This document shows positions 41,191 to 44,243 of a DNA stretch of 64,000 nucleotides, one piece after another (the first letter of the stretch is position 1; each line of letters begins with the position of its first letter). The translations under genes and the position numbers were made by a program. Under the pieces are notes generated by a model that saw only the letters and a list, made by a program, of their open reading frames with translations, did no database searches and was not told where the DNA came from. Source of the DNA: Dechloromonas sp. A34 (lineage in GTDB: Bacteria; Pseudomonadota; Gammaproteobacteria; Burkholderiales; Rhodocyclaceae); assembly GCF_026261605.1 (NCBI RefSeq), contig NZ_CP102486.1, forward strand, positions 1,240,001 to 1,304,000, written 5' to 3'.

Positions 41191-41892
41191 ATGTCAGTCA
41201 AAGATTTCATCATCGCACCGAGCATTCTTTCAGCCAACTTTGCCAAACTCGGCGAAGAGGTGGCCAATGTCATCGCTTCCGGTGCCGACTGGATTCACTT
41301 CGACGTGATGGACAACCATTATGTTCCCAATTTGACCATCGGGCCGCTGGTTTGTGAGGCGATCCGGCCATGCACGAGGGCGCCGATTGACGTCCATCTG
41401 ATGGTCAAGCCGGTGGATCGCATCATTCCCGATTTTGCCAAGGCCGGCGCCAATATCATCACCTTCCACCCGGAGGCTTCCGAGCACGTCGACCGCAGCC
41501 TGGCGCTGATCCGCGATGCTGGTTGCCTGGGCGGCCTGGTCTTCAACCCGGCGACGCCACTCGACTACCTGGACTACGTGCTCGACAAGATCGACGTCGT
41601 GCTGCTGATGAGCGTCAACCCCGGCTTCGGCGGCCAGAAGTTCATACCAGGCACGCTGGCCAAGGCTCGCCAAGCGCGCGCCAAGCTGGACGCCTACGAG
41701 AAGGAAAGCGGCCGGCGCATCCGTTTGGAAATCGATGGCGGCGTGAATCCAGCCAACATCGCCGAAATCGCCCGTGCCGGAGTCGATGCCTTCGTCGCCG
41801 GTTCCGCTGTCTATGGGGCAGGCAAGGACAGCGACCCGCATCGCTACGATTCGATCATCGGCGCCCTGCGCAGCGAACTGGGCAAAGTCTGA
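41191..41892 (+). CDS. rpe: Ribulose-phosphate 3-epimerase
   Basis: 233 aa from ATG 41191 ([20 protein letters not shown]). TIM barrel with the metal ligands in [14 protein letters not shown] (His and Asp near 35-39), HLMV near 70, [10 protein letters not shown] near 142 and EIDGGV near 180. Interconverts ribulose-5-P and xylulose-5-P. The open frame upstream is antisense to apaG. Overlaps gph by one base (TGATG). Confidence 0.96.
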
Positions 41893-42572
41893 TGCATTTT
41901 CAATCCGTTACCTTCGACCTCGACGGCACGCTGCTCGACACCATCGCCGACCTCGCCGAGGCTTGCCGCCTGATGCTCGAAGAAATCGGCGCCCCGCCGC
42001 GCACCCATGCCGAAGTGCACAGCTTCGTCGGCAAGGGCATGGCAGTTCTCGTCGAGCGCTGCCTGACCCATGAGCACCCGCCCTCGGCTGAACGCCTGCA
42101 CGAAGCCATCGAGTCCTTCAAGCGCCATTACGCAGTGGTCAATGGTCGCTTCACCCAGATCTACCCAGGGGTGATCGACGGTCTCAAGGCATGGCGGGCG
42201 AGTGGCCTGAAAATGGGCGTCGTTACCAACAAGCCGGGGATGTTCACCGAGGCCCTGCTCGAGCGCATGGGGATGACCAGCTACTTCGATGTCATCGTCT
42301 CCGGCGACACGACGGCGCACAAGAAGCCGCATCCCGAACCAATCCTGCATGCCTGCCGCTTGTTCGACGTGCGGCCGGACCGCAATCTGCATATCGGTGA
42401 TTCGAAAAACGACATCCAGGCCGCTCATGCCGCCGGCTGTCCGGCATTCGCCGTGCCCTACGGCTACAACGAAGGCGAGCCGGTGGACAGTGCAGAATGC
42501 GATGCGCTAGTATCCAGTCTCCTTGTTGCCTACCAACAAGCACTTACTTTCAAAGACCTCAAGCACAAATGA
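41892..42572 (+). CDS. gph: Phosphoglycolate phosphatase Gph
   Basis: 226 aa from ATG 41892 ([17 protein letters not shown]). HAD motifs: DLDGTLLDT (nucleophile Asp near 9), VVTNKP (motif II), KKPHPEP (motif III Lys) and IGDSKNDIQAA (motif IV). It removes 2-phosphoglycolate. Its TGA overlaps the ATG of a Trp-rich leader peptide, so translation of the leader is coupled to gph, and trpE lies downstream, an order common in betaproteobacteria. Confidence 0.95.
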   Translation: MHFQSVTFDLDGTLLDTIADLAEACRLMLEEIGAPPRTHAEVHSFVGKGMAVLVERCLTHEHPPSAERLHEAIESFKRHYAVVNGRFTQIYPGVIDGLKAWRASGLKMGVVTNKPGMFTEALLERMGMTSYFDVIVSGDTTAHKKPHPEPILHACRLFDVRPDRNLHIGDSKNDIQAAHAAGCPAFAVPYGYNEGEPVDSAECDALVSSLLVAYQQALTFKDLKHK

Positions 42573-42625
42573 CGACACAGCGACTCTGGAACGAATGGCA
42601 AGGCTGGCGCCCCTGGCGTCGGTAA
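42569..42625 (+). CDS. trpL: Trp-rich leader peptide (trp attenuator)
   Basis: An 18-codon frame whose ATG overlaps the gph stop (ATGA) and which ends TAA at 42623-42625. Tryptophan is at residues 7, 10, 13 and 16 of 18, every third codon, which is far beyond chance. It lies 69 bases before trpE. This is the hallmark of a ribosome-mediated attenuator sensing charged tRNA-Trp. Too short for ordinary ORF lists. Confidence 0.85.
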   Translation: MTTQRLWNEWQGWRPWRR

Positions 42626-42656
42626 TTCCTTTCCGCTTTTGCGCCTGAACGGCGCA
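42605..42656 (+). promoter_or_regulatory. Possible competing hairpins of the trp attenuator
   Basis: TGCGCC (42640-42645) pairs with GGCGCA (42651-42656). The same GCGCC can pair instead with GGCGC inside the Trp codons of the leader (about 42606-42610). A ribosome stalled on Trp codons would cover that copy, so the two pairings exclude each other. No T-run follows the hairpin directly; a T5 lies just before the trpE ribosome-binding GAGG (42679-42687), so control could be on termination or on trpE translation. Confidence 0.5.
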
Positions 42657-42694
42657 CCCAGACCGCAATACCCTGTCATTTTTGAGGCATCCCC

Positions 42695-44169
42695 ATGACT
42701 GAAATCGAATTCAACGCGCTTGCCGCGCAAGGCTACAACCGTATTCCTGTTACCCTGGAAACGTTTGCCGATCTCGACACGCCGCTGTCGATCTACCTCA
42801 AGCTGGCCAACGGCCCTACACCTATCTGCTCGAATCGGTGCAGGGTGGCGAACGCTTCGGCCGCTATTCGATCATCGGCCTCGCCGCCTCGACGCGGATC
42901 ATCGTCAATGGCCACCAGGTGCTGGTGCTGACCGGCAACCGCATCGCCGAGCGCGAAGACGACACCAATCCGCTCGACTTCATCGGCAAGTTCATGGAGC
43001 GCTTCCGCGCCCCGCCCAGCGCCGGCCTGCCGCGCTTCTGCGGCGGCCTGGTCGGCTGTTTCGGCTACGATACGGTGCGCTACGTTGAAACCAAGCTGAC
43101 CCGCACCCACAAGCCGGACGACATCGGTACGCCGGACATCGGCCTGCTGCTCTCCGAAGAAATCGCCGTCGTCGACAACCTGTCCGGCAAGCTGACCCTG
43201 ATCGTCTATGCCGAACCCGGTTTTCCCGGTGCCTACCAGAAAGCGAGGGCCCGGCTCAAGGAATTGCTCGGCAAACTGCGCACCGCCGTCACCATTCCGA
43301 GCGAACAGCCGGTCTACTCCGAAGCCGCCGTCTCCACTTTCGGCGAAGCGGCCTTCAAGCAGGCCGTGCTCAAGGCCAAGGACTACATCACCGAAGGCGA
43401 CGTCATGCAGGTCGTGCTCTCGCAGCGTATGACCAAGCCCTTCCAGGCCAGCCCGATGGCGCTCTACCGGACGCTGCGCAGCCTGAATCCGTCGCCCTAC
43501 ATGTTCTACTTCGATTTCGAGGATTTTCATGTCGTCGGCGCTTCGCCGGAGATTCTGGTCCGCCTCGAAGGCGACCGTGTCACGGTCCGCCCGATCGCCG
43601 GCACCCGCAAGCGCGGCGCGACGCCGGAAGAAGATGCCGCCCTGGCCGCCGAACTGCTGGCCGACGAGAAGGAGCGTGCCGAGCACACCCAACTGCTCGA
43701 CCTCGGCCGCAACGACTGCGGCCGCGTCGCCAAGGTCGGTACCGTCAAGCTGACCGAGAACATGATCGTCGAGCGCTACTCGCACGTCATGCATATCGTC
43801 TCCAACGTCGAAGGCCGGCTGCAGGCCGGGCTGGATGCCCTCGACGTGCTCAAGGCGACCTTCCCTGCTGGTACGGTGTCCGGCGCGCCGAAGGTGCGGG
43901 CCATGGAAATCATCGACGAGCTGGAACCGGTCAAGCGCGGCATCTACGCCGGAGCCGTCGGCTACCTCGGCTTCCATGGCGACATGGATCTGGCAATCGC
44001 TATCCGTACCGCCGTGGTCAAGGACAAGCGCCTCTACGTTCAGGCCGGCGCCGGTATCGTTGCCGATTCCGATCCCAGTTCGGAATGGACCGAAACCCAG
44101 AACAAGGCCCGCGCCGTGCTGCGCGCTGCCGAATTGGCCGAGCAGGGGCTCGATACGCGGATAGACTGA
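42695..44169 (+). CDS. trpE: Anthranilate synthase component I TrpE (apparent frameshift near codon 40)
   Basis: The gene starts at ATG 42695 ([20 protein letters not shown]), with GAGG upstream. The frame breaks after KLANGP: one C added to the CCC run at 42814-42816 restores [20 protein letters not shown] and a continuous 491-aa protein. Without it, only a 443-codon frame from an internal start at 42838 remains. The chorismate-binding domain is intact ([58 protein letters not shown]). It makes anthranilate from chorismate with TrpG. The break is probably a sequencing error in a C run. Confidence 0.9.
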
Positions 44170-44190
44170 GTGCGTCGCCACCCAAGTGAA

Positions 44191-44216
44191 AACCGCCCGG
44201 AACCGGGCGGTTTTTT
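44191..44216. terminator. Bidirectional terminator between trpE and the binding protein
   Basis: A 10-bp perfect stem (44191-44200 with 44203-44212), 2-base loop and T6 on the plus strand; the complementary A-rich side serves the convergent gene less well. Confidence 0.85.
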
Positions 44217-44243
44217 ATTGCACTGAGGAAACGCTGCCCCTGA

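Follow-up and report, generated by a model that had tools for sequence, protein, structure and literature searches.

How might a tryptophan-rich leader frame control trpE when it is followed by no terminator hairpin of the classical kind? This question is raised by the gph-trpE gap of Dechloromonas sp. A34, which was analysed within a 64,000-nucleotide stretch of DNA (the window) belonging to a single-contig genome of 4.76 Mb. A previous sequence-only reading had placed in the gap an 18-codon frame with Trp at positions 7, 10, 13 and 16 that starts on the gph stop, and all of this is present in the sequence. The leader ATG at 42569 overlaps the gph stop TGA (42570-42572), and the leader TAA (42623-42625) lies 69 bases from the trpE ATG at 42695. 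The upstream gene we take to be gph (phosphoglycolate phosphatase) from that reading, from its place after an rpe-like frame and from sequence features.

41892-42572, + strand: gph frame, 226 amino acids, with its stop overlapping the leader start
42569-42625, + strand: Trp leader frame, 18 codons and a stop, peptide MTTQRLWNEWQGWRPWRR
42587-42589, 42596-42598, 42605-42607 and 42614-42616, + strand: the leader Trp codons, read from the sequence
42695-44169, + strand: trpE, its frame shifted between the ATG and about 42838

The trpE ATG of the window precedes the aligned stretch by 143 bases and is in a different frame. An open in-frame ATG or GTG start is found in 66 of the 68 other same-genus trpE loci, the remaining two being cut off, and the shift in the window may be either a real lesion or a sequencing error. 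On the 3′ side of trpE, a GC-rich palindrome with a T-run (AACCGCCCGGAACCGGGCGGTTTTTT) was noticed by eye at 44190-44217, followed by an opposing frame; it is absent from the consensus scan list. The trpG and trpD genes of the same genome are located elsewhere, at about 4.316 Mb, and no Trp leader was found in the 400 bases upstream of trpG.

The leader frame is clearly conserved within the genus. A TrpE search gave matches at E 1e-150 in 70 of 76 genomes, and 69 loci were examined, with genome G068, a partial TrpE match, left out; 66 of the loci had enough upstream DNA, whereas L030, L114 and L150 had none that was usable. A leader is present in 64 of these 66 loci, 61 times with 18 codons, and carries at least three Trp residues in 63 of the 64, which argues that it is more than a chance frame. 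Trp7 is invariant (64 of 64 leaders) and Trp13 and Trp16 are nearly so (62 and 61), while Trp10 is retained in 45. The two exceptions are L129, where the frame is shifted near the leader end, and L135, which shows no leader and no gph end in front of trpE. The Trp leader peptide proposed earlier is thus borne out, and, judged by its conservation, the Trp-rich frame before trpE is confirmed as real. As in a classical attenuator, it is a Trp-codon frame located 5′ of a trp gene, its translation being presumed from sequence conservation.

Trp-rich leaders also occur 5′ of trpE in the wider family, in other Betaproteobacteria and in some Gammaproteobacteria, with motifs such as AEAWPWRPWR (Accumulibacter-type), EAWLWRRWQSW (Oxalobacteraceae), SWRWW (Methylophilales) and RWWRWRTG (Marinobacter). 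Across all taxa, a frame with at least two Trp is present in 173 of 211 upstream regions under a loose rule that admits some chance frames. Loci with no usable trpE start (L030, L051, L068, L091 and L150) were dropped before the counts, from which the window itself (L001) and two other chorismate-binding proteins (L002 and L003) were also left out. A stricter rule on length, position and start was followed by hand removal of up to ten sequences in which the frame picked was apparently a chance or wrong one (L042, L171, L056, L065, L054, L052, L108, L097, L076 and L069; L056 carries a Trp-rich leader that the rule did not pick). This left 161 sequences, 155 of them distinct, and 82 representatives; for L136 and L138 the rule chose a start longer than the 18-codon one. 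A same-type set of 71 sequences, including a few from other genera, was selected by a pattern of Trp followed by certain residue pairs. This pattern favours Trp7, and the Trp counts given above were therefore taken from the 69-locus survey, which did not use it. An alignment of 65 sequences leaves out the long-insert leaders L017, L031, L116, L155 and L178.

Some leaders have further features of their own. In two same-genus leaders, L017 and L031, the final WR-WR motif is preceded by a similar in-frame insertion, WPFDGAQDW, that resembles a short mobile or palindromic repeat; the insertion in L116 differs. In EAWPW and EAWHW leaders (L035, L036, L039, L197, L217 and others) a short hairpin of variable sequence can be seen by eye just 5′ of the Trp codons, often followed by a Shine-Dalgarno-like GGAGG inside the leader.

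A defining feature of a classical terminator attenuator is absent from the window: no hairpin with an adjacent U-run follows the leader (42626-42694), as had been noted from the sequence. The segments from which a two-way switch had been proposed are present, GCGCC at 42641-42645 and GGCGC at 42606-42610 and 42651-42655, and two hairpins are predicted around them.

42603-42623 (42603-42611 with 42615-42623), + strand: hairpin in the last Trp codons, from the minimum-energy fold
42640-42656 (42640-42645 with 42651-42656), + strand: P3, the GCGCC/GGCGC hairpin 3′ of the leader stop, from the fold

One half of the proposed switch holds up, as GCGCC can pair with the downstream GGCGC in 98% of the cells of the 65-sequence alignment against 23-60% in slid versions, with two of the five pairs changed on both sides. 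For the other half, GCGCC is able to pair with the GGCGC inside the Trp codons in 97% of cells; this match is largely fixed by the codons UGG-CGN and does not appear in the predicted folds of the window. The Trp-codon segment is predicted to pair with itself in the minimum-energy fold, also with a ribosome at Trp7.

A terminator-like scan match at 42603-42623 was rejected, as it lacks a real U-run and is followed only by AATTCCTTTC. Our own scan gave a terminator-like site in one of the 71 same-type sequences (L127) and in five of 72 other representatives (L214, L188, L106, L092 and L102); these counts are lower bounds, since L087, where a hairpin precedes six T, escaped the scan. Such a hairpin with six T lies between leader and trpE in L087, L092 (a Polynucleobacter) and L102, the Oxalobacteraceae type, where it seems to be combined with some complementarity between the leader start and the trpE Shine-Dalgarno (SD) region. 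In L106, a relative of these three, the leader-start complementarity is GUUUCUC with GAGAGAAAC. Among the Rfam 15 covariance models, only a tRNA matched the window at gathering scores, and a search of 42400-42800 up to E 5 gave two matches from unrelated families, far below their gathering scores.

A different structural element emerges when sequences are read side by side: the leader start and the bases immediately preceding it are complementary to the SD region of trpE, with sequences that differ by lineage. In the window, the unconstrained fold of 42519-42724 is one long hairpin of -57.4 kcal/mol (z -2.26; 6 of 200 shuffles as good), in which the helices P0, P1 and P2 are predicted to clamp the leader start onto the trpE SD, while leader codons 4-7 pair further inside.

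42557-42562, + strand: P0 5′ strand CCUCAA, the anti-SD segment just upstream of the leader start, pairing with 42682-42687 in the minimum-energy fold
42567-42574, + strand: P1 5′ strand, leader start region AAAUGACG, pairing with 42674-42681
42580-42582 (GCG) and 42585-42589 (UCUGG), + strand: P2 5′ strand, containing the first Trp codon, pairing with 42664-42666 and 42658-42662
42658-42666, + strand: P2 3′ strand CCAGA-C-CGC, from the fold, conservation and swap test
42674-42687, + strand: P1 and P0 3′ strand UGUCAUUU-UUGAGG, with the trpE SD GAGG at 42684-42687, from the fold, conservation, swap test and ribosome model

The helices are retained in the aligned sequences, with 93% of cells paired for P0, 87% for P1, 81% for P2b and 89% for P2a, and each slid version is lower; the CCUC:GAGG pairing of P0 drops to 31-55% and that of P1 to 16-71%. 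An SD-like motif precedes trpE in 70 of the 71 same-type sequences and in 55 of 72 other representatives. Anti-SD-like words around the leader start are found in 62 of 71 same-type sequences against 22 of 71 in a control stretch; outside this set the figures are 28 and 21 of 72, and the word count therefore shows little there. An SD sequestered in a conserved structure, as expected of a translational attenuator, is thus predicted from the models and the alignment.

Comparative evidence for the clamp also comes from exchanging its two partners between species. Among 28 same-type representatives, native partners pair better than swapped ones (z -6.1; 26 of 28 better than expected; 0 of 100000 permutations), and other thresholds give z -5.0 with 20 representatives and -7.1 with 40, while the controls stay at -0.8 and -0.1. 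For the 72 other representatives z is -14.2 (65 of 72, 0 of 100000 permutations; control -1.0), and the effect appears both in the 42 that belong to the family (z -8.7, control -0.7) and in the 30 outside it (z -9.6, control -0.3), where L043 is counted although it probably is a family member. Locus numbers and record titles, some of them naming no genus, served to decide which of these belong to the family. Taken separately in the same-type set, P2 gives z -4.6 (0 of 100000 permutations) and P0 z -3.1 (116 of 100000 as good), whereas P1 alone, which varies little in sequence, is not significant (z -1.3).

Base composition evidently matters at the leader start. The leader-start segment reached p 0.05 against dinucleotide shuffles in only 27 of the 82 representatives and surpassed all of its own gph controls in only 23, the raw duplex energies being -17.6 for native and -17.1 for gph control segments. 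A first swap test with all 82 representatives (z -14.1; 29 of 82 in the best 5% of their own row) is thus partly inflated by composition, since the gph control segments were nearly as strong. The control windows of the later swap tests and a pairing map answer this objection. In the map, window energies of the 82 representatives were centred by row and column, and an anti-diagonal appears that peaks at the leader start versus the trpE start (t -8.2) and extends to about +40 versus -40, as one extended hairpin.

Covariation between columns of the same-genus alignment is weak (p 0.01, with the best of the predicted pairs at rank 203 of 9917), and RNAalifold on the 65 sequences gives only 13 pairs at -3.5 kcal/mol. 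We think that the pairing register slips between lineages, which is why the alignment-free swap tests with their controls were relied on. Together, the models and the sequence comparisons make the clamp between the leader start and the trpE SD region a well-supported structure.

How a ribosome on the leader might affect this structure was approached with a static folding model in which the ribosome is a 30-base mask and co-transcriptional folding lies outside the model. In the window, the modelled probability of the SD being unpaired is 0.016 in the free RNA, 0.39 with a ribosome at the leader start and 0.37 with one at Trp7; with the ribosome at Trp10, Trp13, Trp16 or the stop it remains at 0.016-0.020, so that of the ribosome positions modelled just these two, the leader start and Trp7, free the SD. 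Over the 71 same-type sequences, SD accessibility averages 0.06 both in the free RNA and with a ribosome at the stop, 0.21 with one at Trp7 and 0.35 with one at the leader start; the Trp7 value is above the stop value in 67 of the 71 sequences, and in 23 of them the difference is larger than 0.2.

The picture is different in the broader set, where 76 of the 82 representatives were modelled. There shuffled sequences leave the SD more accessible than the real RNA does (p 1e-4), although 23 of the 76 show the opposite. Placing a ribosome at the leader start raises SD accessibility above the free state in 55 of 76, but the first-Trp position gives a more open SD than the stop position in just 37 of 76 (p 0.80), and so has no advantage over it. 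Outside the same-type set, only five of the 72 representatives have their first Trp before codon 11, and 207 of 213 Trp codons are at codon 11 or later. In the model, direct occlusion by a ribosome at Trp7 is thus compatible with the situation in this genus; for families with later Trp codons, a queue of ribosomes or a kinetic effect would have to be invoked. Even within the genus, Trp10, Trp13 and Trp16 are left unexplained, since modelled stalls at these codons keep the SD closed, and a stall at Trp7 opens it only partly.

An account of the leader also has to consider how it is itself transcribed and translated. The stop of gph overlaps the leader ATG in 40 of the 71 same-type sequences, is located 5-30 bases upstream in 17 and at -2 in one, and is unplaced in 13; in 10 of the 71 it begins seven bases upstream of the ATG. 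An SD-like motif before the leader start is found in only one of 71 same-type sequences and three of 72 other representatives, and reinitiation after gph may therefore still matter, being possible where the two overlap. Within gph, the following elements were found.

42484-42513, + strand: candidate promoter inside gph, -35 TGGACA 42484-42489 and -10 TAGTAT 42508-42513, from the consensus scan
42522-42540, + strand: hairpin H1, close to where the leader transcript is predicted to begin, within gph codons, from the fold and scan

The promoter scan by itself gave one hit against 0.5 expected in shuffles of the region. A -10-like hexamer at a nearly fixed position about -55 from the leader ATG is, however, present in 62 of 71 same-type sequences and in none of 71 control gph stretches, and in other representatives in 48 of 71 against one of 71, at varying distances; in the window TGGACA is positioned 18 bases upstream of it. 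This suggests a promoter inside gph with a transcript start near 42520, and the leader probably has a promoter of its own, although gph coding in the same stretch may account for part of the -10-like conservation. The coupling to gph translation that the sequence-only reading regarded as unusual is accordingly seen as an overlap in 40 of 71 sequences, but the conserved promoter-like element makes it probable that gph is not the sole route to the leader. The hairpin H1 is located right at the predicted transcript start, and its arms appear by eye to change together in relatives; the stretch also codes for the end of gph.

Taken together, the leader, its Trp codons, the clamp helices, the lack of a U-run terminator and the conserved promoter-like element are all supported by the comparisons, and the arrangement likely works like a translational attenuator. 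We infer the ribosome stalling, the direction of the response, the involvement of Rho or decay and the initiation of an SD-less leader, perhaps by reinitiation after gph. With no ribosome near the leader start, the RNA would form the long hairpin in which P1 and P0 pair with the trpE SD region, and trpE would be poorly initiated. Trp7 is positioned in P2, the next helix up. When charged tRNA-Trp is scarce, a ribosome would wait with Trp7 in its A site, covering approximately +2 to +31 of the leader, and would hold P1 and P2 apart so that the trpE SD is free. When Trp is plentiful, the ribosome would reach the stop codon and the clamp would close behind it, hiding both starts, and the untranslated trpE mRNA might then be lost to Rho or decay. 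On balance we consider this Trp-sensing translational attenuation through the leader-start/trpE-SD clamp probable. The earlier suggestion that the mechanism may act on trpE translation is therefore favoured by the data, via a helix other than those it had named.

Several other explanations have to be weighed against it. Classical transcription attenuation, in which the Trp codons would choose between an antiterminator (GCGCC with the Trp-codon GGCGC) and a terminator (GCGCC with the downstream GGCGC), could draw on the three segments, able to pair in 97-98% of cells, and on the six-T hairpins between leader and trpE in L087, L092 and L102. It is nevertheless quite unlikely here, as no U-run follows P3 in the window and a terminator-like site was found in one of 71 same-type sequences at the lower bound; moreover, P3 persists in the Trp7-stalled fold while the Trp-codon segment pairs with itself, and the leader-start/SD pairing would be left unexplained. 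A further alternative is a ribosome queue, in which a stall at Trp13 or Trp16, or at the late Trp codons elsewhere, backs a second ribosome onto the leader start and so keeps the SD free. Such a queue would make use of the retention of Trp13 and Trp16 in 62 and 61 of 64 leaders (Trp10 in 45), of the late Trp codons in the 72 other representatives (207 of 213 at codon 11 or later) and of the modelled opening by a leader-start ribosome (0.39 in the window; above free in 55 of 76). It would require dense loading, which is doubtful with an SD-like motif before only one of 71 and three of 72 leaders, and Trp7 is too near the leader start to build a queue, so that as the mechanism in its own right we hold it to be unlikely.

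The same modelled opening by a leader-start ribosome would also serve a constitutive dampener or coupling device, in which ribosomes translating gph and the leader open up the trpE start whatever the Trp supply and the Trp codons matter little. A ribosome terminating on gph would presumably cover a similar stretch, the gph stop and the leader ATG overlap in 40 of 71 sequences, and leader frames have been proposed as translation antennas in PMC4833913. Such a device would, however, explain neither the invariant Trp7 and the conserved Trp13 and Trp16 nor the Trp-rich leaders before trpE far outside the genus, and we regard it as very unlikely. Translational attenuation through the clamp can also be joined with queueing in a broader reading, which we put forward tentatively. 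It envisages a widespread attenuator class of Betaproteobacteria and some Gammaproteobacteria, where a complementary leader start and trpE ribosome-binding site would clamp each other shut and drift together between taxa. Occupancy of the SD-less leader start, by an early-Trp stall or by a queue behind later Trp codons, would be the sensor, and trpE translation rather than termination the output, with a terminator added in Oxalobacteraceae-type lineages. The co-drifting helix would offer a ready test set, and each helix and each Trp codon makes a separate prediction that can be tested.

The pairing between leader start and trpE SD region appears to be a new element, missed by the sequence-only reading, and no description of such a clamp was found in the open-licence literature searched. 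Its novelty is held with reserve: Vitreschak et al. 2004, on Trp attenuators in Proteobacteria, and the review of Lopatovskaya et al. 2010 may cover Trp leaders 5′ of beta-proteobacterial trpE and may contain part of the finding.

For transcription attenuation the trp leader is the textbook example, and E. coli trpL is a classical ribosome-mediated attenuator with a U-run terminator. What trpL has in common with the leader described here is the short Trp-codon leader peptide directly 5′ of trpE. In contrast to trpL, such a terminator turned up in our scan in only one of the 71 same-type sequences, and the partner predicted for the SD is the leader-start stretch. In E. coli trpL the start:SD pairing amounts to only -4.1 kcal/mol, and none of the 82 representatives is as weak, although trpL is a rough control because its stretch is AT-rich. 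If a large group of bacteria does control trpE through such a clamp, the same sensor, a slow ribosome at Trp codons, would be wired to a different output, which would explain how terminator-based searches could overlook such leaders.

The hairpins of erm-type translational attenuators are arranged differently, and these attenuators are not known to clamp their leader start onto the structural gene's SD. The likeness to them is that ribosome stalling in a leader frame frees a sequestered SD (PMC8274638, PMC5118997), as proposed here, whereas the signal there is an antibiotic-bound ribosome. The nearest precedent seen is the LEU element of Actinobacteria (PMC1262725), with a leader peptide 5′ of leuA whose leucine codon run pairs with the leuA SD and for which a pseudoknot is proposed. 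In our folds, made with programs that do not predict pseudoknots, the codon run does not itself pair with the SD; the SD has the segment preceding the leader start as its partner, and the start codon is paired in the adjoining P1. The two systems would thus differ in the partner of the SD, which is the codon run in the LEU element and the leader start with its preceding CCUC before trpE, where the first Trp codon is placed in the next helix.
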